Below are positions 27,463 through 39,336 of a stretch of DNA of 64,000 bases, piece after piece (position 1 is the stretch's first letter; every line of letters begins with the position of its first letter). Origin of the DNA: Longimicrobiales bacterium (GTDB lineage Bacteria > Gemmatimonadota > Gemmatimonadetes > Longimicrobiales > Gaopeijiaceae); assembly GCA_958295645.1 (NCBI GenBank), contig OY282361.1, positions 2,570,501 to 2,634,500 on the forward strand. Direction: 5' to 3'. Made by a program: the position numbers and the translations under genes. A model generated the notes under the pieces. The model did no database searches, had not been told where the DNA came from, and saw nothing but the letters and a program-made list of their open reading frames with translations.

Positions 27463-28356
27463 ATGGCCGCCAAGAAAGGATACAAGAAAAAGCGCACGGC
27501 TCGGAACCCGGGATTCGACTCCGGCGTGGACGAGCAGAACGCGCTGGATCAGTACCTGCGCGACGTGAGCCGCGAAGAGCTGATCACGCCCGAGGAGGAG
27601 AAGCGCTTGGGCGCGTTGGCGCAGCAGGGCGACGAGGAGGCCATCCAGGCCCTCGCCAAGGCGAACCTGCGCTTCGTGATCAGCGTGGCCAAGAAGTATC
27701 AGAACCGGGGCGTGTCGCTCACCGACCTCATCCAGGAGGGCAACGTGGGGTTGGTGACCGCCGCGCGGAAGTTCGACCCGACGCAGGGCGTGAAGTTCAT
27801 CAGCTACGCGGTCTGGTGGATCCGGCAGGCGATCCTGGCCTCGCTGGCGAACCAGGGACGGCCCGTGAGGGTGCCGCTCAACCGCGCGTCGGACCTGTCC
27901 AGGATCTTCCGGGAGCGCGAGCGCCTCAAGCAGGAGCTGGAGCGCGAGCCCTCGGTCCAGGAAGTGGGCCGCGCCGCGCGTCTGACTCCCGAGGTGGTGG
28001 AGTTCCTGCAGACCTTGAATGCCGCGGAGATCAGGCTGGACGCCGCGGTCGGCGAGAGCGAGGACTCGAAGCTCGTCGAGCGCTTCATCGCGGAGGAGGC
28101 GGCCGAGCCGGAGCTGGAAGTGGAGACCCGGCTCCGCAGCGAGGCCGTGACCAAGGCGCTGGGTGCGCTCGACGAAAGGGATGCGCACGTGCTCAGGCTG
28201 TACTTCGGGCTTGAAGGCGTCCGCGAGCACACGCTGGAGGAAATCGGCAACGTCCTGGGCGTTACGCGCGAGCGTATTCGCCAGCTTAGGGACAGGGCGT
28301 TGCGACGCTTGAAGGAAGGCGGCATGGGCGAAGCCCTGAAGTCGTTCGCAGCATGA
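27463..28356 (+). CDS. RNA polymerase sigma factor, sigma-70 (tandem copy 1)
   Basis: A 297-residue sigma-70 factor without region 1.1. It has a Lys-rich N-terminus (KKGYKKKRT), region 1.2 ALDQYLRDVSREELITPEEE, region 2 ANLRFVISVAKKYQNRGVSL and GVKFISYAVWWIRQ, region 3 GRPVRVPLNRASDLSRIF, and the region 4.2 helix-turn-helix EEIGNVLGVTRERIRQLRDR. GGAGG and GAGG precede the ATG. It is much more similar to the next gene than to the sigma factor at 4444-5316. The pair therefore looks like a tandem duplication of an alternative (RpoS/group 2-like) sigma factor; which stimulus each serves is not visible. Confidence 0.95.
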   Translation: MAAKKGYKKKRTARNPGFDSGVDEQNALDQYLRDVSREELITPEEEKRLGALAQQGDEEAIQALAKANLRFVISVAKKYQNRGVSLTDLIQEGNVGLVTAARKFDPTQGVKFISYAVWWIRQAILASLANQGRPVRVPLNRASDLSRIFRERERLKQELEREPSVQEVGRAARLTPEVVEFLQTLNAAEIRLDAAVGESEDSKLVERFIAEEAAEPELEVETRLRSEAVTKALGALDERDAHVLRLYFGLEGVREHTLEEIGNVLGVTRERIRQLRDRALRRLKEGGMGEALKSFAA

Positions 28357-28417: not shown

Positions 28418-29392
28418 ATGGCTCGAAAGACCAAGAATCGCCGTGGCGCCTCTTCGGCGTCCGGAGACGCGATGAGGGATGCGGACGGGCACACCGGGCT
28501 GAACCAGTACCTGACGGACGTGAACCGCCACGAACTCATCACGCCCGAAGACGAGAAGCGCTTGGGGGCGCTGGCGCGCCAGGGGGACCAGGAAGCCATT
28601 CGCGCCCTGGCCAAGGCTAATCTGCGTTTCGTGATCAGCGTGGCCAAGAAGTACCAGAACCGGGGAGTGTCGCTGGAGGACTTGATCCAGGAGGGGAACG
28701 TCGGCCTGGTGACGGCGGCGAGGAAGTTCGACCCCGAGCAGGGCGTCAAGTTCATCAGCTACGCGGTCTGGTGGATTCGGCAGGCCATTCTGGCCGCCTT
28801 GGCGAACCAGGGGAGGCCCGTCAGGGTGCCTCTGAACCGCTCCTCCGACTTGGCGCGGATCTTCCGGGAGAAGGAACGGCTGAAGCAGGAACTGGGCCGC
28901 GAGCCGTCGAGCGAGGAAGTGGGCCGCGCCGCCCGTCTCACGCCGGAGATGGTGGAATCGCTGCAGACGCTCAACCACGCGGAGGTGAGGCTGGACGCTC
29001 CGGTCGGCGAGAGCGAGGACTCCAAGCTGGTGGAACGCTTCACGACGGAGGACGTCAACGACCCCGAGCTGGAGGTCGAGAGGCGCCGCCGCACCGAAGT
29101 GGTGAACCGGGCGCTTCGGGCTCTCGGTCCGCGAGACGCGGAAGTGCTGAGGCGCTGCTTCGGACTGGGGGACCTCAAGGAGCACACGCTGGAAGAGATC
29201 GGCAACCACTTCAACGTGACTCGGGAGCGCGTCCGCCAGCTCCGGGACCGCGCCTTGAAGACATTGAAGGAGGGGGGCGAGGCCGAAGTCCTGCGCGCGT
29301 TGTTCGGGGAGATTCCGGGCGTCGTCCTCACCAAGCCGGCAAAGCCGCGCGACCGCAAGGAGACCGCCAAGGTGGAGTTCTTCGCCGCGTGA
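28418..29392 (+). CDS. RNA polymerase sigma factor, sigma-70 (tandem copy 2)
   Basis: A 324-residue sigma-70 factor, by eye about three-quarters identical to the preceding one through regions 1.2 to 4 (for example ANLRFVISVAKKYQNRGVSL, GVKFISYAVWWIRQ, GESEDSKLVERF). It differs in the region 4.2 recognition helix (EEIGNHFNVTRERVRQLRDR) and carries an extra C-terminal tail of about 25 residues rich in Lys (TKPAKPRDRKETAKVEFF). The ATG is 61 bp after copy 1, so the two are probably cotranscribed. Divergence in the -35-recognition helix and the tail suggests partial specialisation. No anti-sigma factor gene lies beside either. Confidence 0.95.
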   Translation: MARKTKNRRGASSASGDAMRDADGHTGLNQYLTDVNRHELITPEDEKRLGALARQGDQEAIRALAKANLRFVISVAKKYQNRGVSLEDLIQEGNVGLVTAARKFDPEQGVKFISYAVWWIRQAILAALANQGRPVRVPLNRSSDLARIFREKERLKQELGREPSSEEVGRAARLTPEMVESLQTLNHAEVRLDAPVGESEDSKLVERFTTEDVNDPELEVERRRRTEVVNRALRALGPRDAEVLRRCFGLGDLKEHTLEEIGNHFNVTRERVRQLRDRALKTLKEGGEAEVLRALFGEIPGVVLTKPAKPRDRKETAKVEFFAA

Positions 29393-29591: not shown

Positions 29592-30470
29592 GTGGTCGAG
29601 ACCGGGGGCGGTTCCTACCGGGTGCTCACGCCCGGAGGCGACGTCGAGGCCACGTTGAGGGGCAAGCTCAAGCAGGGCAGCCAGCGGGCGGCGCTCGTGG
29701 TGGTGGGCGACCTGGTCGGGGTGCGCCCGGCGGCGGAGGGTCGTTTCGTGATCGACGAAGTGCGCGACCGCAAGACGGTGCTGGCCAGGCGAATGCAGGG
29801 CGGGCACGCCACCAAGATCGTGGCGGCCAACTTGGACAGGTTGCTGGTCGTGGCGTCGGTGGCGCAACCGTCCCCTTCCACTACCGTCATCGACCGCATG
29901 ATCGTGATGGGCGAAGCGGGCGGCCTGAAGGTCGTCCTCGTCCTGACGAAGACGGATTTGCCAGGGGGCGGCGAGCAGGCCGCGACGCTGGCCCGGTTCT
30001 ACGAGCGGGCGGGCTATCCTTCCGTCTGCGTGTCCGTGGTCACGGGAGATGGGGTCGCCGACTTCGAGCGCGTGGTCGGCTCCGGCCTGTCGGCGTTGGC
30101 CGGGCCTTCGGGCGTGGGCAAGTCGTCGCTCCTGAACCGTCTGGACCCTTCGCTGGGCCTGCGCACGAGCGGCGTGGGGCGGAGGTCCCTGCGCGGAAAG
30201 CACACGACGGTGGCCAGCAGGCTGGTCAGCTTGCCGGGGGGCGGTCGCGTGGCCGACACGCCGGGCTTCTCCGACGTCAGCGGCGTGCGCGTGGACCCGG
30301 AGGACCTGGACGCGTGCTTTGCCGACTTCCGGCCCTACCTGGGACAATGCCGGTTTCGGGACTGCAGGCATCTCCGCGAGCCGGGCTGCGCGGTTCTCGA
30401 GGCCGTTGCCGAGGGACGGGTGGCTGCACAGCGCCACCGAAGCTACCGAATGATCTTGGACGAGATGTGA
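29592..30470 (+). CDS. rsgA: Ribosome small-subunit-dependent GTPase A
   Basis: A 292-residue circularly permuted GTPase that helps late 30S subunit maturation. The N-terminal OB-fold (about 1-70) contains VVVGDLVGVRPA. GTPase motifs are in permuted order: G4 LTKTDL, G1 GPSGVGKSSLLN, G2-like GKHTTVASRL and G3 DTPGF. The C-terminal zinc site is CRFRDCRHLREPGC, complete. The start is GTG 29592 with GGAAGG just upstream. The first residues of the family (usually about 10 more before the OB strand) are short here, so an upstream start cannot be fully excluded. Confidence 0.95.
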   Translation: MVETGGGSYRVLTPGGDVEATLRGKLKQGSQRAALVVVGDLVGVRPAAEGRFVIDEVRDRKTVLARRMQGGHATKIVAANLDRLLVVASVAQPSPSTTVIDRMIVMGEAGGLKVVLVLTKTDLPGGGEQAATLARFYERAGYPSVCVSVVTGDGVADFERVVGSGLSALAGPSGVGKSSLLNRLDPSLGLRTSGVGRRSLRGKHTTVASRLVSLPGGGRVADTPGFSDVSGVRVDPEDLDACFADFRPYLGQCRFRDCRHLREPGCAVLEAVAEGRVAAQRHRSYRMILDEM

Positions 30471-30617
30471 GGCCGTGTGCGCCGGGGGCTCGCCAACGCG
30501 CCGACTAGTCGTTTGCCGGGAGGCATGTGCGCGCATCGCCTACGGTGACGCGCTGTTCGGGGCCTCGCGGGCGGACGGCAGGGTTGCCTCCAGCCCAAGG
30601 ACGGCGGGGCGCAGGCC

Positions 30618-33248
30618 GTGAAGGTCGCCCACCTGTCGGACCTCCATCTGGGTCACGGCGCCGGCGGGCCCGGAGCGGGACGCGCCCGGGACGTGTCGAG
30701 GGCCTTCGAGGAGGCGATGGCCCGCGTCGGCGAGCTGGCGCCGGAGCTGGTGGTGGTGTCCGGCGACGTCTTCGACCATCCGCGCGTGACCGCCTCGCCC
30801 ATCGCCACCTTCACCAAAGCGGTCGGCGACCTGATGGATCGCCTTCCGGGCGTCGCCGTGGCCATTGCGGCGGGGCTGCGGGACACGCCGCTCGACGCCG
30901 GGCGTCTCGGCCCCTTGGAGGTCGTGGGGGCGGTGGGCGGCGTCGAAGTCGCCACGGAGACGGTTCGCCGCTTTCGCGTGGGAGAGACGGGCGGGAGCGT
31001 GACCCTCCTGCCGTACGCCGCGCTGGTTCGCGCCAAACGGGGCAGGCCCGTGGCCGAGCCGGACGCCCACGCCGAATGGAACGTGCTGGTGGCCTACGCG
31101 GATGCCGACTTCGGTCGCGGACGGGCGTGGGGCGCCGTCGCGCCGGGCCGGTGGGACTACGTGGCGCTGGGGTCGCGGCACGTGCGAACCCAGGTGGCCG
31201 AAGGCGTCCACTACTGCGGGTCGCTGGAACGCATCGGTTCCGATCCGTGGGAGGAGGCGGCCACCGACAAGGGGTTCCTGCTGGCCGACCTCGACTCCGG
31301 CTCCACGACGTTCTGCGCGGTGGGAGCGCGCGCGGTGGTCAGCTTGGCGGCCGTGGACGCGGGGGCGGGCGGGCCGGTGGCCGTGGCCAGACGACTGAGC
31401 GAGGCGCTGGCGGGGGTTCCAGGCGGAGTGGAGGGCAAGCTGATCAGGGTGCCGGTGCGCGGACTGGCGCCGAACGACCTGGCCGCGTTCGACCGCGACG
31501 CGCTGGAACCGCTGCGGAAACGCGTGGCCGGGCTCCGCGTCGATGCTCTGCCGGTGCGAGACCGTGAGAGATTGTCGGCGGGCGGCCGCGGCGGAGCGGG
31601 AACGAAAGCGCGCAGGGGCGGGCGGCTTGGCAGTCGCTCCGCCACCTCTCGCGTCGCCGAGCCGGAGGCGGGCAAGGGCGGCGGCAAGAGCGGTTCGCGG
31701 CCTCCCGCGGCCCGGACGCTTGCGGATCTGCAGGCGAGCGGGCTCGGAGGGCCGTCCTTGGACTTGCGAGGGGCCAGCGGCCTGATCGGCCTTGTGGGAG
31801 GCGTGGCGGCCCTTTGGGACGAAACGTTGGCCGCGCTGCACGAGGCATTCGCGCCTCCAGCCTCGGAGGCGGCGCCGTCGGCCATGCATGTCGCCTCTCC
31901 AGCCGCCGAGACGTTCGCGCCGTCCGCGAAGAAGCGGCCGCGGCGAGGAGCGCCGGTCGCCCGCGGACGAGTCGGAGCGGTCGTGCTGGACAAGGACGGG
32001 TTCGAGCCTCTCCTGGGCGCTGCATTGGCGGACCGCGGGCTCCGCCGCGAAGAGTACGCGGCCGTCTGGTTCGGGGCGGGTTCCGTTGGGACGTGGCTGT
32101 CGGCGGGCGTGTCGCTCCTGCGGGGGTCGGCCTCCGCCGGCGAAGCAGGCGCCCGGCCCCGGTTGCCGGAGGCGAGACAAGGCGGTTGGCCCGCTCCCCG
32201 CTCGCTGGCCGACTGGCTCCGGCGTCTGGTGAAGGAGACCGAACGCGACGTCTCCCGGCTGCGGCGCTCCGAGGCCGAGACGCTTCGGCTGAAGGCGCGC
32301 CTGGCGACTCTGCGCGAAGACGCGGCGGAGATCCAAGGCGACATCGAGGCGGGCGTGATGGGCTGGGTGCGGGAGCGGCAGGACGCCGAGACGCGGCTGT
32401 TGCTGCACCGAGACCGTGCTCGAGAGCTGAAGGACCGGCTCAAGGAGGCCGAGAAGGCGGGAGGCGAGGCGGGCTGTTCGGCCTGCGGCCGTGAGGTCGG
32501 CGACCGGATGCCGGATGTCGTACGAGCTCGTCGCGAGGAGTGGGACGGCGTGGTGCAGGACGGCCGGTGGTGGCGCAAGCGGAGGGATCAGCTGGAGGAC
32601 AAGCCCGCCGAGATGAAGGCCGCCGAGACCCGTGCGCTGGAGATCGAAGCCGCAATGGACGAGGCCTCCGAGGAGCTGGAGCGACGGCGGGTGCAGGCTC
32701 AGGAGTTGGAGCACGTGCGCCGCCGCCTGAGAGACTTGCGCGAGGCCGAATCCCATATCGCCCCGCCCGGCGCACCCTCGCGGCCGGAGGCAAACGTCGC
32801 CGCCCAGGCCTCGGAACGGCTTCGCGAGCGGATTCACGTGGAGGCCGTGACCCTTACGGGCGGCCGCCTGGCGAAGACGTTTCCCGGCCTGTTCGAGGCG
32901 TGGACCCTGGGGAGACGCCGAAGCGGCGGCGACGTGGCGGCCCTGGAACTGGCCGCCCGGATCGTCTTGGCCGAGCTCGCGGTTGCCGTCGGCCTGCCGC
33001 TGGGCTCCGTGCTGTTGCCCCGCGGACTCGACGCCTTGCACTTGGAGGACGTCCCCCGCGCGCTCGTCCAGCTGGCCAAGCTGGCCCGCCGCCTGCCGCT
33101 CGTGTTCGCGGGGACGTCCGGCCGGGTCGTGGCGGCGGCGCCGGAGTGCTTCGACTACCTCTTCGTGTCAGGCCACGGGCCAAGCGGCGAGGATCGCATC
33201 ATGCGCCGCCGACCGCGGCCAAGCCCGCTGCGGCTCGCCGCGCACTGA
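30618..33248 (+). CDS. Single-chain SbcD-SbcC (Mre11-Rad50)-like fusion, catalytically degenerate
   Basis: An 876-residue protein with an SbcD/Mre11-like phosphoesterase (about 1-310), a basic Gly/Ala/Arg-rich linker (about 315-375), then an SbcC/Rad50-like half. D8, H10 and D50 of HLSDLHLG and SGDVFDH remain, but the GNHD motif reads GLRD (86-89), the motif IV His reads Y160, and GHxH reads GSRH (185-188). The Walker A region GLVGGVAALWDE (391-402) aligns ungapped with the SbcC P-loop but has Trp for Lys. The Walker B position reads SVLLPRGLDAL (797-807) without Asp-Glu. Two coiled coils (about 533-615, 655-710) flank an intact zinc hook, CSAC at 620-623. An SGG signature remnant is at 769-771. 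It is probably a non-catalytic DNA-tethering or scaffold protein. GTG 30618 begins the conserved fold. Confidence 0.8.
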   Translation: MKVAHLSDLHLGHGAGGPGAGRARDVSRAFEEAMARVGELAPELVVVSGDVFDHPRVTASPIATFTKAVGDLMDRLPGVAVAIAAGLRDTPLDAGRLGPLEVVGAVGGVEVATETVRRFRVGETGGSVTLLPYAALVRAKRGRPVAEPDAHAEWNVLVAYADADFGRGRAWGAVAPGRWDYVALGSRHVRTQVAEGVHYCGSLERIGSDPWEEAATDKGFLLADLDSGSTTFCAVGARAVVSLAAVDAGAGGPVAVARRLSEALAGVPGGVEGKLIRVPVRGLAPNDLAAFDRDALEPLRKRVAGLRVDALPVRDRERLSAGGRGGAGTKARRGGRLGSRSATSRVAEPEAGKGGGKSGSRPPAARTLADLQASGLGGPSLDLRGASGLIGLVGGVAALWDETLAALHEAFAPPASEAAPSAMHVASPAAETFAPSAKKRPRRGAPVARGRVGAVVLDKDGFEPLLGAALADRGLRREEYAAVWFGAGSVGTWLSAGVSLLRGSASAGEAGARPRLPEARQGGWPAPRSLADWLRRLVKETERDVSRLRRSEAETLRLKARLATLREDAAEIQGDIEAGVMGWVRERQDAETRLLLHRDRARELKDRLKEAEKAGGEAGCSACGREVGDRMPDVVRARREEWDGVVQDGRWWRKRRDQLEDKPAEMKAAETRALEIEAAMDEASEELERRRVQAQELEHVRRRLRDLREAESHIAPPGAPSRPEANVAAQASERLRERIHVEAVTLTGGRLAKTFPGLFEAWTLGRRRSGGDVAALELAARIVLAELAVAVGLPLGSVLLPRGLDALHLEDVPRALVQLAKLARRLPLVFAGTSGRVVAAAPECFDYLFVSGHGPSGEDRIMRRRPRPSPLRLAAH

Positions 33249-33320: not shown

Positions 33321-35636
33321 CTACGAACTCCCCAGCGCGGCCCAGGCCTCGTAGCGGCTCAGCATCCGCCTGGCCGTGGCCTCGTCGCCCCGAGCGGAGG
33401 CGGCGCTGTAGAGCGCGATGTACGCGTAGCCGTAATAGCTTGCAATCCCCGCGGAGGGCCGATCCGGCCAGAAGTCCCAGTCGTCGGGGAGGCCGCCCCG
33501 GTGCACGAAGACCTCCTCCAACAGCGCGCGCGTGCGGCCCACGTCGATCCAGGCTCCCGTCAGCGACCTCAAGCCGGCGTCGTCGACTCGTTGCAGGTCG
33601 CGGTCTTCGTTCTCGCCGGGGTCGCCCGGCCACAGGCGAAAGGCCACGCCCTCGCGAACGACGTGCCCCTCCAGCCCCAGCGTCGCGGGCGTGACCACGG
33701 CGCTGGCGAAGTAGACCGGACGGTCCTCGACGGCTTGCCGGATCGCCCACAACACGAACTGTTGCCACGGCCAGACTCGCTGGCCGGCTGCCAGGCGCGC
33801 GGTCAGCGGGCCCAGTTGCGCATAGGAAACGCTGTCCAAGATTGGATAGCTCATCGCGATCCTGTGGACTTGGTCGTCGGTCCAGTCCTCGGGGAAGATC
33901 GAACGCGTGGGCGAGCGAGCCGGCTCGGAAAGAACCAGCGGGACCTTGCCGGCCGCCTCCGCGACAGCCGGATCGTGCGTGTAAATGGCGCCGGTGTTCT
34001 CCGCCGAATAGGGGCGCTGGCAGACGATTCGGGTGGGGTCGGCGGCGGGGTCCTCGCCCGGCTTGCAGGGGCGCGTGAGCTTGCGGAGCTGCGTCACGTA
34101 CCACGGCGTGTTGAGATACGAGGTCACGGCGATGGTCACGTCGCGCCGTATTCCCTCCACTTCCTGCAGGTACCAGAGCGGGAAGGTGTCGTTGTCGCCG
34201 TTGGTGAAGATGAGGCCGTAGGGCTCCACGCTCATGAGCAGGTTGTACGCCCAGTCCCGCGCGGAATAGTCGTTGTCCCGTCTGGCCCGGTCGAAATTGA
34301 GGACCAAGGGAACCAAGGCCAGGGCCAAGACGGGCGCTCCCGCAAGCATCGCCTTCCTTTCGGCCCACCCGAATCGGGCGGTCAAAGCCTCGTAGGCGCG
34401 CCGCCAGAGGGTTGCGATCCCGATTCCCGCCATCAGTCCCCACACCGAGAATCCGACGATGAAGAAATAGTCGCGTTCGCGGACTTCGTGCTTGTCCAAG
34501 GTGTCCGGGTCTGGCGCCGGGATGGAGTATCCGTACTTGAAGTTCAGGTAGTACATCAAGCCGGCCGACAGGACGACGAACAGCGTCGTCATGTAGACCC
34601 CGCTCTTCGGATCGCGTCGCAAGTGTTGGGCCAGTCCCAGAATCCCCAAGACTGCGAACAAGGCCGTGACGGGACTCCTGGCCCCGCCGAACAGCACGTT
34701 GTCGGCGTCGAGGCCGCGCGCCCACTGCCAGTCGAAGTACTGAAACCAGTTTCGGAACTGCGCGGCCAGCGGCGCTTGGCGAACTCCGACGGGCGGCTTC
34801 TGGTACTGCTCCCGCTTCAACGCCGACGACAGCTCCAGGCATCCCGCGTTGCCGTAGGTGACGATGCTCGTCACGGCGTCGCCGACGCTCTCGCAGGTGG
34901 GTTCGGCTTCGTTGATGACCGGCCCCTGGCCCGCGCGCAAAGGCAGGAACAGGTGGATGGACAGCCCCAGGAAGGCCGCCACCAGAATGGCCGGGTAGAG
35001 ACGGAAGTGCAGCAGCGCCCTCGGACGCACCAGGCAGATGAAGACGAGCAGCGCGGGCGCGGCCAGGAACGCCATCAGATGATTGCCGACGGAAAGCGCC
35101 AGCACGAACGTCATCAGCAGGAGGATGTTGTCGTCCCGTCCGCTTCCCAAGTTGTCGCGCCAGCGCAGGGCCAGCCAGGAGAGCAGCGCGATGGTGAAGA
35201 ACGAGACCGTGTAGACCTTCTCGTTGACGTTGGACTGGTTCCAGACGGTGAACGCGGTGGCGCTCGCCAGAACCGCAGCGAAGGCGCCGGCAAGCCGGAA
35301 CGCACGAGGGCCGCCGAAGAACTTGAGGATGCGGTGGACCACCAAGAACCAGAGCCCGTGGCTCATGGCGCTCATCGCCACCGAGAAGAGGTTGATCCGC
35401 ACCGCCGTGGACAACCCGGTCGGCTCGAGAAGAATGTGCCAAGCGCGAGCCATGAGGACGAACAGGGGATTGCCCGGAGGGTGCGGGATACCGAGGATGC
35501 GGGCGGTAGCGATGTACTCGCTGGCGTCCCAGAAGGCGGTCGTGGGCGCCAAGGTGGCTATGTAGAGCAGCGAGACGGCGGCCGCGACGGCTCCGGCCCA
35601 GGCATAAGGGGGACGTTCGGAGGGACGTTCGCTCAT
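33321..35636 (-). CDS. DUF2723 family membrane protein (putative protein O-mannosyltransferase-like)
   Basis: A 771-residue integral membrane protein. The N-terminal two-thirds holds about 11-12 transmembrane helices. It begins with the DUF2723 hallmark LAPTTAFWDASEYIATARILGIPHPPGNPLF, in which the acidic residues resemble the first-loop catalytic Asp of GT-C glycosyltransferases; later marks are NEKVYTVSFF and GNHLMAF. The C-terminal third is soluble (FTNGDNDTFPLWYLQEVEGIRRDV). GT-C enzymes transfer sugars from polyprenyl carriers, so a role in surface glycosylation is inferred. ATG 35636 overlaps the HyuA stop by 4 nt (ATGA), so the pair is coupled although the functional link is unclear. 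Confidence 0.88.
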   Translation of the reverse strand: MSERPSERPPYAWAGAVAAAVSLLYIATLAPTTAFWDASEYIATARILGIPHPPGNPLFVLMARAWHILLEPTGLSTAVRINLFSVAMSAMSHGLWFLVVHRILKFFGGPRAFRLAGAFAAVLASATAFTVWNQSNVNEKVYTVSFFTIALLSWLALRWRDNLGSGRDDNILLLMTFVLALSVGNHLMAFLAAPALLVFICLVRPRALLHFRLYPAILVAAFLGLSIHLFLPLRAGQGPVINEAEPTCESVGDAVTSIVTYGNAGCLELSSALKREQYQKPPVGVRQAPLAAQFRNWFQYFDWQWARGLDADNVLFGGARSPVTALFAVLGILGLAQHLRRDPKSGVYMTTLFVVLSAGLMYYLNFKYGYSIPAPDPDTLDKHEVRERDYFFIVGFSVWGLMAGIGIATLWRRAYEALTARFGWAERKAMLAGAPVLALALVPLVLNFDRARRDNDYSARDWAYNLLMSVEPYGLIFTNGDNDTFPLWYLQEVEGIRRDVTIAVTSYLNTPWYVTQLRKLTRPCKPGEDPAADPTRIVCQRPYSAENTGAIYTHDPAVAEAAGKVPLVLSEPARSPTRSIFPEDWTDDQVHRIAMSYPILDSVSYAQLGPLTARLAAGQRVWPWQQFVLWAIRQAVEDRPVYFASAVVTPATLGLEGHVVREGVAFRLWPGDPGENEDRDLQRVDDAGLRSLTGAWIDVGRTRALLEEVFVHRGGLPDDWDFWPDRPSAGIASYYGYAYIALYSAASARGDEATARRMLSRYEAWAALGSS

Positions 35637-37615
35637 GGCGTCGTAGCGGGCGATGTCGCCGGGCGGCGCTTGCCGTCGCCGGCGTGGCGCAGGAGGAGGC
35701 TTCCGGTCTTCATTACAGTACAACTCCAGCCCGTGGGTATCCAAGTCGTTCCAGAGTATTCGGCGACGACGGCCGGGCCGTCGAACGCGGCGCCCGCGCA
35801 GAGCGAGCGTCGCGCGTGCAGTTTCGCTGTGGTTGATCCTTCGGTGCCGCGGATGGTTGCCGCAGCGGGGGGCGGCGTGGTCCCCGCGGGTGGACCGGCC
35901 ATGCGAATCTCGGCGGGCGGGGCTTCCGCCAGGACTCGTAGGGTGACGGCTTCGACGGGGCTGTCGCGGCGCGCGTAGCCGTAGCGTCGCTCGTGGGCCG
36001 AGTGGAAGGCTTCGGCCCACCCGTCCGCGGGCACGCGCAGTTCGAAGCTCTGGCCCGCATAGCGCGCGTCCACGGTCTCGGCGACCCGCACCGCGTCCTC
36101 CGGGTACCCCTCGGCCAGCAGATCCTTCGTGGCTGTGTCGCGGAGTTCGGCGAAGACGGCGTCCAGAGAGCCGGCGGACTTGCCCAGAACCGTCCGGGAC
36201 GCCTCCCGCGTGACGGGCGCCACGAGCATTCCATAGGCGGAGAGAAGTCCGGGGCCGGTCGGCACCAGGGCCGTCGAGAGGCCGATCCGCGAGGCGAGTT
36301 CCGCTACGTGAAGTCCGCCTGCGCCCCCGAACGCCACCAGGCAGAAGTCCTTGGGGTCGTAGCCCCGCTCGACCGAGATCACCCTCAACGCCCTTTCCAT
36401 TGCGCTGTTGGCGACGGCCACGACGCCTTCGGCCGCCGCCTCCAGGCTCGTGCCCATGCCCTCCGCGACGCTCGCCAGCGCCGGCTCGATCGCCTCCCGA
36501 TCCAGTCGGCTCGCGCCCCCCAGGAACTGGTCGGCCGGCAGCCGCCCCAGCCAGACGTGCGCGTCGGTCACGGTGAGATCGGTTCCGCCGCGCCCGTAGC
36601 AGACCGGTCCCGGCGCAGCCCCGGCGCTCTCGGGACCCACCTTGAGCGCCCCGCCCGCGTCCAGCCGCGCGATGCTGCCCCCGCCGGCGCCCACCGTATG
36701 GATGTCCAGGACCGGAATCGCCACGGGCTGCCCGTCCACCGCGAACTCGCGCGAGGCGAGCAGTTCGCCGGGACACAGCGAGACGTCGGTGGAGGTGCCG
36801 CCCATGTCGAAAGCGACGATGTCGTCGAACCCGGACCGCCGGGCGGCTTCCATGGCGCCCACGACTCCACCGGCAGGCCCGGACAGCACCGTGCGCACCG
36901 GTTCTCGCGCCGCCCTCGCCACCGGAATGGCGCCGCCGTTGGACCCCATGATGCGGATTCTCTCGGCGCCGCCCTTCTCCTCCAGCTTGCCCAGGTAGCC
37001 GGACACCAGGGGCGCCACGTACGCGTTCACGACCGTCGTGGACGTGCGCTCGTATTCCCTGAACTCCGGCAGGATTCGCGACGAGACCGAGACCGGCTTG
37101 CCGCAGCCCGCGAGCGCCTCCGCGAGCGCTTCCTCGTGAGCCGGGTTCGCGTACGCGTGCAGGAGGCAGACCGCCACCGAGTCGAACTGGGCGGCCCAAG
37201 CGGCCAGCGATGCGGTCTCCTGGGCGTCCAGCGGCTCCAGCTCCTCTCCCTGCGGGCCGATCCGTCCGGAGACGCCCGTGCGGTCGCCGGGGGCCACCAA
37301 GGGAGGCTTGCGCGAACCGACGAGCGCGTAGAGTTGCGGGCGGTTCTGGCGGCCGATCTCCAGCACGTCCTCGAAGCCGCGGTTGGTCGCGAGTCCCACG
37401 TGCGCGCCCTTTCGCTCCAGCAGCGCGTTGGTTGCGACGGTCGTGCCGTGCAGCAGGACGAACCGCCGGCCCTCGCCGCCCAGCAAGGTCCGGATTCCGT
37501 CCAGCACGGCACGGCTCGGATCGTCCGGCGTGGAAGGAATCTTGAGCCTTCGCAGCCTGCCGTCCTCCAGGGCCAGGAGATCGGTGAACGTGCCCCCCGT
37601 GTCCACCGCCACCAA
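35633..37615 (-). CDS. Hydantoinase/oxoprolinase subunit A (HyuA)
   Basis: A 660-residue ATP-dependent amide-ring hydrolase of the HyuA/5-oxoprolinase family. It starts with the family block VAVDTGGTFTDLLAL and has LLHGTTVATNALLERKG, NRGFEDVLEIGRQNRP, RILPEFREYERTSTTVVNAYV, GSNGGAIP, GPAGGVVGA, FDMGGTSTDVSL and VGAGGGSIA, so the actin-like ATPase core is complete. TTG 37615 is preferred: GGGGAG lies 6 nt upstream and homology begins at once. The frame is open to ATG 37795, but those 60 residues are Gly/Pro-rich, come from a direct repeat and would leave only 20 bp to the divergent trpE. No HyuB partner gene is adjacent. Confidence 0.9.
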   Translation of the reverse strand: MVAVDTGGTFTDLLALEDGRLRRLKIPSTPDDPSRAVLDGIRTLLGGEGRRFVLLHGTTVATNALLERKGAHVGLATNRGFEDVLEIGRQNRPQLYALVGSRKPPLVAPGDRTGVSGRIGPQGEELEPLDAQETASLAAWAAQFDSVAVCLLHAYANPAHEEALAEALAGCGKPVSVSSRILPEFREYERTSTTVVNAYVAPLVSGYLGKLEEKGGAERIRIMGSNGGAIPVARAAREPVRTVLSGPAGGVVGAMEAARRSGFDDIVAFDMGGTSTDVSLCPGELLASREFAVDGQPVAIPVLDIHTVGAGGGSIARLDAGGALKVGPESAGAAPGPVCYGRGGTDLTVTDAHVWLGRLPADQFLGGASRLDREAIEPALASVAEGMGTSLEAAAEGVVAVANSAMERALRVISVERGYDPKDFCLVAFGGAGGLHVAELASRIGLSTALVPTGPGLLSAYGMLVAPVTREASRTVLGKSAGSLDAVFAELRDTATKDLLAEGYPEDAVRVAETVDARYAGQSFELRVPADGWAEAFHSAHERRYGYARRDSPVEAVTLRVLAEAPPAEIRMAGPPAGTTPPPAAATIRGTEGSTTAKLHARRSLCAGAAFDGPAVVAEYSGTTWIPTGWSCTVMKTGSLLLRHAGDGKRRPATSPATTP

Positions 37616-37638
37616 GACCGGCTCCCCCGCCTCCGCCC

Positions 37639-37724
37639 GCCCGCCCGGAGAGGCCCCCTTGCCGCCCCTCGAGCCGTCGTCCGCTGGCTCGCCCCGCCCG
37701 CCCGGAGGGGCCCCTTCGCCGCCC
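37639..37724. repeat. Imperfect direct repeat between hyuA and trpE
   Basis: A GC-rich block of about 29 bp, beginning GCCCGCCCGGAG, occurs at 37639-37667 and again at about 37696-37724 with three differences, a 57-bp period. It lies in the divergent region between the preferred hyuA start (37615) and trpE (37816). If the longer hyuA start is used it would encode a repeated Gly/Pro-rich segment. Confidence 0.7.
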
Positions 37725-37815
37725 GGCTTGGCGCCGCCCCGCCTCTCGTACCTAGACTTCCCTTCGTGTTGCGCCAAGGCCGTTGGCTTCCTCATGCCCG
37801 TGAAACGCGATTCCA

Positions 37816-39336
37816 GTGAGACTTCGTCCGTCCCTCGACTCCTTCTTGCGCCAAGCCGCGCCCGGCTCCCGCGTCCCAGTATGGTGCGAATTCCTCTTCG
37901 ACGCCGACACTGCCGTCGCGGCCTACCACAAGCTCAAGGAGGGGCCGTTCGGCTTCCTGCTCGAGTCCGTGGTCGGCGGCGAGCAATGGGCCCGGTACAG
38001 CTTCCTGGGCAGCCGTCCGCGCGGCGCCTGGAAGCTCGACGACGGAGGCGTGTCCGTGTGGGACCCGGCCGAGGGCTGGTCGGACGCCGGCGTGTCCGAC
38101 CCCCTGGAGGACTTGGGCCGACGGCTCGCCTCGTCCGTGCCCAAGCCCGACGCCCGGCTTCCGCGCTTCTGGGGGGGCGCCGTGGGCTACTTCGGGTACG
38201 ATCTGGTGCGCCGCTTCGAACGGCTGGGCGCGCCCCCGCCCGACGACCGGGGCCTGCCGACGGCGCTGGTGATGTTCTCCGACGTGGTCGTCGCGATCGA
38301 CAACCTGAACGGACGCGCCAAGGCCATTGCCACGGTCGACGTAGGGAAGGCCACCGGCGAGGACGCGCTGAGGCGCCTCTACAGGGAGGCCGCCGCGCGC
38401 CTGGAGGAGACGGTCGGGCGCCTGCGCTCCCGAGACGGACCCGGGCCGCTGGAACTGACGGCGGACGCCGAGGATCCCGCTTACGCCAGCAACCTGGGCC
38501 GCGACGCGTTCGTGGCGGGAGTGCGGCGAATCAAGGACTACATCGCCGCGGGCGACGCCTTTCAGGTCGTGCTGAGCCAGCGCCTGGAGACCCGTTTCGA
38601 GGGGCCGGCCTTCGCCCTCTACCGCGCGCTCCGGACCATAAACCCGTCGCCGTACCTGTACCATCTCGACTTGGACGACTTCAGCATCGTCGGCTCCTCT
38701 CCCGAGGTGCTGGTTCGGCTGGAGGACGGCGTCGTGACCGTTCGGCCCATCGCGGGGACCCGTGCGCGCGGCGGGACGCCGGCCGAAGACCAGGCGGTCG
38801 CCCGGGATCTCGCGGAAGACGAGAAGGAACTTGCAGAGCACCGGATGCTGGTGGACCTGGGCAGGAACGACGTCGGGCGCGTGTCCCAATACGGCAGCGT
38901 AGAGGTGCCGGAACTCATGGAGGTGGAGCGCTACTCGCATGTGATGCACCTCTGCAGCCGGGTGGAGGGCCGCGTTCGCGACGATCTGTCCGCGCTCGAC
39001 GTCCTCGCGGCCTGCTTTCCGGCGGGGACCGTGACGGGGGCGCCCAAAGTTCGCGCAATGGAGATCATCGACGAACTGGAACCGACGGCGCGGGGGCCCT
39101 ATGCGGGCGCCGTCGGGCACGTCGGCTGGGGCGGACGGCAAATGGACACGGCCATCGCGATTCGCACAATGGTGGCGAGGGACGGCCAAGCCGACGTCCA
39201 GGCGGGCGCGGGCGTGGTCGCCGACTCCGATCCCGAGAGCGAGTTCCAGGAGACTCTGAGCAAGGCGCGTGCGCTGTTGCGGGCCGTGGCGATGGTCGGC
39301 GCGGGTTCGTCCGGGGGGGCGCCGTCGCGCTCCTAG
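37816..39336 (+). CDS. trpE: Anthranilate synthase component I
   Basis: A 506-residue chorismate-utilising enzyme that makes anthranilate with glutamine-derived ammonia, the first step of tryptophan synthesis. The feedback-site segment LLESVVGGEQWARYSFLG is at about residues 48-65. The catalytic domain has VVLSQRL, SPEVLVRL, RPIAGTRARGGT, EDEKELAEHRMLVDLGRNDVGRV, GTVTGAPKVRAMEII and the terminal GAGVVADSDPESEF. All chorismate and Mg2+ residues recognisable by motif are present. TrpG and the other trp genes are not in the window, so the gene stands alone. GTG 37816 starts it. Its stop codon lies within CTAG, shared with the convergent dipeptidase gene. Confidence 0.95.
   Translation: MRLRPSLDSFLRQAAPGSRVPVWCEFLFDADTAVAAYHKLKEGPFGFLLESVVGGEQWARYSFLGSRPRGAWKLDDGGVSVWDPAEGWSDAGVSDPLEDLGRRLASSVPKPDARLPRFWGGAVGYFGYDLVRRFERLGAPPPDDRGLPTALVMFSDVVVAIDNLNGRAKAIATVDVGKATGEDALRRLYREAAARLEETVGRLRSRDGPGPLELTADAEDPAYASNLGRDAFVAGVRRIKDYIAAGDAFQVVLSQRLETRFEGPAFALYRALRTINPSPYLYHLDLDDFSIVGSSPEVLVRLEDGVVTVRPIAGTRARGGTPAEDQAVARDLAEDEKELAEHRMLVDLGRNDVGRVSQYGSVEVPELMEVERYSHVMHLCSRVEGRVRDDLSALDVLAACFPAGTVTGAPKVRAMEIIDELEPTARGPYAGAVGHVGWGGRQMDTAIAIRTMVARDGQADVQAGAGVVADSDPESEFQETLSKARALLRAVAMVGAGSSGGAPSRS

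Follow-up and report, generated by a model that had tools for sequence, protein, structure and literature searches.

The locus raises the question of why a long reading frame joining an SbcD (Mre11)-like nuclease and an SbcC (Rad50)-like ATPase in one chain should persist with its catalytic centres apparently lost and its zinc hook kept. An earlier note on this DNA read the gene as a covalent SbcD-SbcC pseudoenzyme selected for a non-enzymatic role. Here we examine the predicted folds of the product, the state of its motifs in the family to which it belongs, its ancestry and selection, and the roles that remain compatible with these.

Domain layout and predicted folds

The window, i.e., the whole 64,000-nucleotide stretch of DNA that was analysed, comes from a genome represented by one contig of 2.89 Mb. 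The gene encodes an 876-residue protein (P0001); f1 denotes the family to which P0001 belongs, whose members are mostly uncultured, and f2 and f3 its two sister families. Coordinates are collected in Table 1. The claim of the earlier note that the frame is intact over 876 codons was confirmed, from a GTG start, and both an SbcD and an SbcC domain are found in this one frame, as it had also stated. The N-terminus of P0001 matches SbcD/Mre11 (TIGR00619, E-value 5e-6 over residues 2-56) with a score of 26.4 bits, which is below the curated cut-off of 77.65, and PDB chains of Mre11 match the N-terminus at an E-value of about 0.006. The coil matches Rad50.

Table 1. Features of the pseudo-Mre11-Rad50 locus (window coordinates)
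Feature	Coordinates	Strand	Basis or remark
rsgA, upstream synteny marker	29592..30470	+	same order in family and f3
Pseudo-Mre11-Rad50 fusion gene	30618..33248	+	open frame, 876 aa, GTG start
Mre11/SbcD phosphoesterase and capping domain, residues 1-314	30618..31559	+	AF2 model compared with Mre11
Motif I SDLHLG, D8 and H10 kept	30636..30653	+	D in 64/65, H in 63/65 family members
Motif II SGDVFDH, bridging D50 kept	30759..30779	+	D in 63/65 family members
Dead motif III AGLRDTP (GNHD to GxRD)	30870..30890	+	alignment with relatives
Motif IV region, Tyr160 replacing His	31086..31106	+	alignment
Dead motif V LGSRHVR (GHxH to GSRH, second His kept)	31167..31187	+	alignment
Disordered basic linker joining the halves, residues 315-377, pI 11.8	31560..31748	+	pLDDT <50
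Relic P-loop LIGLVGGVAALWDETL, Trp398 at Lys position	31782..31829	+	alignment
Short antiparallel coiled coil, residues 530-712	32205..32753	+	AF2 helices 530-617, 628-660, 664-712
Zinc hook GCSACGRE, C620 and C623	32472..32495	+	alignment
Hook-adjacent segment EEWDGVVQDGRWWRKRRDQLEDKP	32535..32606	+	residue conservation
Relic ABC signature RRRSGGDVAAL	32913..32945	+	aligned to VISGGEEDVANL by hhalign
Relic Walker B GSVLLPRGLDAL, Pro-Arg for Asp-Glu	33003..33038	+	alignment
Relic H-loop LVFAGTSG (ITH in relatives)	33099..33122	+	alignment
Hydantoinase/oxoprolinase-like gene, downstream synteny marker	35633..37795	-	conserved
trpE, downstream synteny marker	37816..39336	+	conserved in f1 and f3

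The whole chain was modelled with AlphaFold2 (AF2) from an alignment of 18 fused homologues (mean pLDDT 78), and the N-terminal 313 residues of this model align to MjMre11 (4tug_D) with a Z-score of 26.8 and an RMSD of 3.3 Å over 282 residues. As the Foldseek matches of the whole chain were filled by its Mre11 domain, the SbcC half was folded separately with 57 homologues (pLDDT 86). Its best structural match is the Rad50 ABC head (3qkt_A; Z-score 15.5, RMSD 6.0 Å over 267 residues, covering both lobes), with SMC heads tied or close behind and other Rad50 heads close behind too. A profile-profile comparison of the SbcC half with its intact relatives using hhalign gives a probability of 100% and an E-value of 5.9e-45, and lines up the hook, the signature and the Walker B region. 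The homology of P0001 to the two halves of SbcCD is far beyond chance, and the absence of an Mre11 fold or a Rad50-type head, either of which would have refuted the pseudoenzyme reading, was not encountered.

The arms and head are shorter than those of the relatives by about 150 residues on each side of the hook: from the Walker A position to the hook there are 222 residues in P0001 against 375 in f2/f3, and from the hook to the C-terminus 257 against about 410. In the AF2 model the hook sits between helix 530-617 and helices 628-660/664-712.

Catalytic motifs and the zinc hook

Nuclease motifs were counted in 65 sampled SbcD halves of the family, P0001 included, in 13 SbcD proteins of f2/f3 and in 20 class-level relatives. 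P0001 has GLRD at residues 86-89, where its relatives carry GNHD; the Asn of this motif is lost in all 65 family members, as is the His, which is replaced by Arg in 62, whereas each is present in 12 of the 13 f2/f3 proteins and GNHD in 20/20 class relatives. The motif IV His, which is Tyr160 in P0001, is present in 39/65 family members and 13/13 f2/f3 proteins. At residues 185-188, GSRH replaces the GHYH of the relatives, the first His of motif V being kept in 6 of 65 family members (lost in 59) and the second in 62. Thus the replacements that the earlier note had read as GLRD, Tyr160 and GSRH stand against the aligned homologues, but its description of the centres as eroded needs qualification, since the loss is not uniform: between 62 and 64 of the 65 members retain the residue at each of the positions D8, H10, D50, D89 and H188. 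We take D8, H10, D50 and H188 to be ligands of one of the two metals in the Pf Mre11 structure, the lost residues presumably belonging to the other.

The ATPase motifs, counted in 64 family SbcC ORFs for the P-loop, in 61 aligned SbcC halves for the remainder and in 12 f2/f3 sequences, have been replaced in P0001, where Trp398 occupies the Walker A Lys column (GLVGGVAALWDE aligned to GIIGPNGAGKST). A GxxxxGK[ST] P-loop is absent from 64/64 family SbcC ORFs and present in 12/12 of the f2/f3 sequences. The signature of P0001 reads RRRSGGDV and lacks SGGE; SGG[EQ] occurs in 3/61 family members as compared with 11/12 in f2/f3. LLPRG stands where the relatives have LILDEV, with Pro801-Arg802 at the Walker B Asp-Glu columns. 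These columns hold D and E in 11 of the 12 f2/f3 sequences, the twelfth being gapped there, and the hhhDE pattern is found in 1/61 family members. The Trp at the Walker A Lys and the PRG in place of Asp-Glu, both pointed out earlier, are thereby borne out by alignment. No Pfam ABC or AAA domain was found in any of 57 family members. Taken over the two halves, the alignments establish that the nuclease metal ligands, the proton-donor His, the P-loop, the signature, Walker B and the H-loop have been lost.

The zinc hook, noted before as a retained CSAC, is indeed kept as C620-x-x-C623, and CxxC is present in 61/61 aligned family SbcC halves; the Pfam Rad50_zn_hook model was found in 5 of 57 family members. 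Conservation of the SbcC half peaks at the hook and its flanks (W583, Q588, C620, C623, Q647-D648-G649-x-W651-W652, R655, Q658 and P663), and Q647, D648, G649, W651, W652, R655, Q658 and P663 are each conserved at >=95% in the family. The segment EEWDGVVQDGRWWRKRRDQLEDKP lies within this most conserved stretch and is common to the active relatives, as are most of the conserved residues of the hook and its flanks.

Ancestry, selection and other Mre11-Rad50 systems

Among the 121 genomes of its family, 98 carry a homologue of P0001, and these represent 31 of the 40 genera. A family genus, g12 (G011, G058-G067), lacks the pseudo-Mre11-Rad50 (pseudo-MR) in all eleven listed genomes and has a canonical SbcD instead, and another family genome (G009) seemingly has two copies (L050, L051) on different contigs, with SbcD halves 91% identical. 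In f2 and f3 the homologue is a pair of genes. One encodes an SbcD of about 385-460 aa, and 12 or 13 of the 13 proteins have the GNHD and GHxH residues; the other encodes an SbcC of about 815 aa with a P-loop in 12/12, SGGEE and LILDEV in 11/12 and a CPTC hook. The 20 class-level relatives, from further families, likewise have a two-gene sbcD-sbcC with intact motifs, the few exceptions being one without a recognised GHxH and two whose contigs are cut before the C-terminal motifs. The gene order rpoD-rsgA-...-MR-...-trpE is common to the family of P0001 and f3, and the locus is therefore orthologous. The tree groups the family in a single clade (SH-aLRT 90), next to an intact f2/f3 clade (97). 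Vertical derivation of the pseudo-MR clade from the ancestral sbcD-sbcC operon of the group is the best explanation of these observations, and from the motif states in the family, in f2/f3 and in the class relatives we infer, on sequence evidence, that catalysis was likely lost early in the stem of the family. Orthologues with intact motifs, had they occurred in related members of the family, would have meant that this copy alone is decaying; all family members lack the catalytic motifs, and the intact orthologues are in the sister families. Horizontal acquisition of a viral or plasmid MR fusion, an origin suggested for other such fusions, is unsupported, as the locus is syntenic with the intact f3 operon and the clade is sister to f2/f3, although no viral or plasmid collection was searched.

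The surroundings of the gene show some differences among relatives. Two adjacent rpoD-like sigma factor genes (27463-28356 and 28418-29392, + strand), about 65% identical, occupy the place of a single ORF in the relatives examined, which looks like a lineage-specific tandem duplication. The gap between rsgA and the MR gene (30471-30617) is about 145 bases in the window; in many relatives this interval contains a flavin reductase gene together with ORFs that match no Pfam family, all of which are missing here. No functional candidate for an operon partner emerged from the genes between rsgA and MR in relatives.

The single chain, which had been taken as a defining feature, does not hold as one. 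Family members outside the fused group have two genes, mostly overlapping by ATGA or GTGA, and the stop/start overlap of the split relatives falls within the linker region of P0001. The tree requires five changes between the fused and split states, and branches with good support make three or more of these unavoidable. Fusion is thus a secondary and recurrent arrangement, and its recurrence suggests that the two halves still act together though both are dead. In one family genome (G023, L059) a frameshift, due to either sequencing error or decay, breaks the pseudo-MR in two within the SbcD half; its congeners G119-G122 have long fused frames.

Selection was estimated as dN/dS by the Nei-Gojobori method, taking as close pairs those with dS under about 0.5. 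In close pairs the SbcD half gives ratios of 0.07 to 0.24 and the SbcC half ratios of 0.10 to 0.30. Between P0001 and its nearest relatives it is about 0.24-0.36 and 0.37-0.47, respectively, and these values are rough because synonymous sites are near saturation. The dN/dS check proposed earlier thus points to constraint on both halves, and we conclude that purifying selection maintains an Mre11 fold and a Rad50-like head of reduced size, along with the shorter arms and the zinc hook. The family-wide motif pattern together with dN/dS rules out a single decaying copy; sequencing or assembly error is ruled out as well, the genome being one contig and identical losses recurring in about 60 species. 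With both folds predicted and all family orthologues devoid of the catalytic motifs, the proposal of a selected, non-enzymatic SbcD-SbcC is supported.

A search for normal sbcC and sbcD elsewhere in the source genome, also suggested earlier, revealed a canonical pair with intact motifs at 1.520-1.525 Mb (L075:5901-10895), and there is in addition an intact YhaO/YhaN-like nuclease-ATPase pair at about 1.827-1.831 Mb (L076:5101-9170). Canonical SbcCD also accompanies the pseudo-MR in the related genera g25 and g26. Across the family, a canonical SbcD is present in 39 of 121 genomes, 25 of which also have the pseudo-MR; comparison of the two genome lists leaves 73 pseudo-MR genomes with no canonical SbcD. 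A YhaO-like gene was found in 17 of 23 family genomes tested as against 2 of 16 sister-family genomes, and it may have been gained at about the point when catalysis disappeared from the old SbcCD locus. An SbcD profile found nothing other than the pseudo-MR in G005, G019 and G027, and G005, G012 and G019 carry the pseudo-MR without a YhaO-like gene. From the 73 genomes without canonical SbcD and the three in which the profile found the pseudo-MR alone, it follows that there is no obligate MR partner. In particular, an obligate partnership with canonical SbcCD is unsupported, most pseudo-MR genera lacking it. A division of labour with an active MR is therefore not universal: canonical SbcCD is absent from the majority of family genomes, and in a few no other MR was found.

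Possible roles and comparison with known systems

We consider it an evenly balanced proposition that the clade-wide pseudoenzyme MR is an ATP-independent, hook-dimerised DNA tether or scaffold, of which DNA binding, dimerisation and role are all inferred. Two chains would dimerise through a Zn2+ hook at the end of arms about 13 nm long (inferred at 0.15 nm per residue from the predicted helices), and the pseudo-Mre11 domains would bind DNA or DNA ends without cutting. Arg88, present in 62/65 family members, is at the position of H85 of Pf Mre11, a residue that touches the phosphate and gives a proton back to the leaving 3'-OH (PMC4996933) and whose replacement by Ser abolishes nuclease activity (PMC8824468); Arg88 may hold a DNA phosphate at the site of the former catalytic His, affording contact without chemistry. 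As ATP cannot close and open the heads, the complex would act passively and constitutively as a tether or scaffold that keeps broken ends or sister duplexes together, in which fusion would fix the 1:1 pairing of the halves, and cutting would be left to the active YhaO/YhaN-like pair and, in some genera, to canonical SbcCD. The Rad50 hook serves as a module for stable dimerisation, and an SMC hinge can take its place (PMC6969161). Family-wide loss of motifs with retention of the hook, and the peak of SbcC conservation around it, support this role as far as sequence comparison can, as do the intact motifs in f2/f3 and the class relatives, the low dN/dS and the active MR elsewhere in the genome. 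DNA clamping by MR, however, depends on ATP-driven head engagement, of which P0001 should be incapable, and with D8, H10, D50 and H188 kept some metal-dependent activity is not excluded. We infer that tethering is the simplest selected role using the kept parts, because the ATP gate is gone while the hook and the Mre11 fold remain. That the whole family, across some 30 genera, uses a dead and repeatedly joined MR as a zinc-hook tether independent of ATP, a natural separation of tethering from nuclease and ATPase, is a broader claim that we advance tentatively, at somewhat less than even confidence.

The main rival is that the pseudo-MR is an adaptor or regulatory subunit, co-assembling by way of its hook or its head with the active YhaO/YhaN-like complex, or with canonical SbcCD, and restraining or targeting its nuclease. 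Regulation of live enzymes by dead paralogues is common, and the distribution of the YhaO-like gene between the family and its sisters roughly tracks the change at the locus; however, most pseudo-MR genera lack canonical SbcCD, three genomes carry the pseudo-MR without a YhaO-like gene, and it is unlinked to either MR operon, so that we regard this role as unlikely. It is decidedly doubtful that the protein is not wholly dead and retains phosphoesterase activity in altered form, with D8, H10, D50 and H188 making up a metal site that is mononuclear or atypical: the conservation of these four in 62 to 64 of 65 and their assumed place around one metal would fit such a site, against which stand the loss of the second-site Asn (65/65) and the first motif V His (59/65), the change of the proton donor to Arg (62/65) and the lack of both exo- and endonuclease activity in the equivalent H85S mutant of Pf Mre11 (PMC8824468). 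A lock rather than a tether, with DNA clamped by heads permanently engaged without ATP, could draw on the compact head predicted with good confidence in both lobes, but the residues that surround the usual interface in the P-loop, the signature and Walker B lack conservation, and there is no dimer model, which makes this improbable. A decaying relic without function, to which one might attribute the degenerate head motifs, the frameshifted G023 copy, the fairly long P0001 branch (0.55) and the additional loss of the motif IV His, is very improbable in the face of low close-pair dN/dS, long open frames in about 60 species, an invariant hook with its adjacent residues, repeated in-frame fusion and conserved synteny. 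A defence system was also considered, the evidence for it being only a weak PADLOC match to Lamassu LmuB (E-value 0.004) confined to the coiled coil (residues 534-712), with which P0001 shares an SMC-like coil at weak similarity; no defence genes were recognised next to the P0001 gene.

The structural role of MR apart from cutting and ATP hydrolysis has been addressed mostly with point mutants. Here evolution has stripped the motifs of both activities from a whole lineage while selection preserved the hook, the coil next to it and the Mre11 fold. If the tethering role is true, hook dimerisation and Mre11 binding would suffice without an ATP gate; if there is no tethering, another selected role of the MR scaffold would be revealed. 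The single-chain members, at 876 aa, are small enough for expression and structure determination.

The claim that the system is undescribed holds in part. Mre11/Rad50 fusions were described in 2011 and are recurrent, occurring in Mimivirus R555, Deferribacter and others (PMC3175470), whereas the papers searched described no MR lineage that is dead yet selected: no MR pseudoenzyme or pseudo-ATPase came to light in the open-access full-text literature, most subscription journals being outside its scope. Within that literature, what is new is a clade-wide, selected pseudoenzyme MR. The R555 and Deferribacter fusions resemble P0001 in having Mre11 N-terminal to Rad50 in one chain and in their recurrent origin, but R555 retains Walker A, Walker B, the D-loop and most of the nuclease signature (PMC3175470), and P0001 keeps none of the ATPase motifs. 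The YhaO/YhaN-type pair of the same genome (about 1.83 Mb) likewise combines a calcineurin-like nuclease with an ABC coiled-coil ATPase, but has intact GNHD, GHVH and GPNESGKS and falls in a separate clade of the tree. Eukaryotic DNA polymerase regulatory B-subunits have lost their catalytic residues. As proposed for P0001, they use an Mre11-like phosphoesterase fold in a structural role, but they have no Rad50/SMC partner or zinc hook and belong to a different lineage; they have been compared with DP1 and Mre11 (PMC4996933). The closest counterpart is the bacterial SbcC-SbcD operon of the related families, which shares with P0001 the domain order, both folds, the zinc hook, the hook-adjacent QDGxWW...KP segment and, in f3, the genome position, and from which the pseudo-MR differs in lacking all ATPase and key nuclease motifs, in arms about 150 residues shorter on each side and in being often fused.
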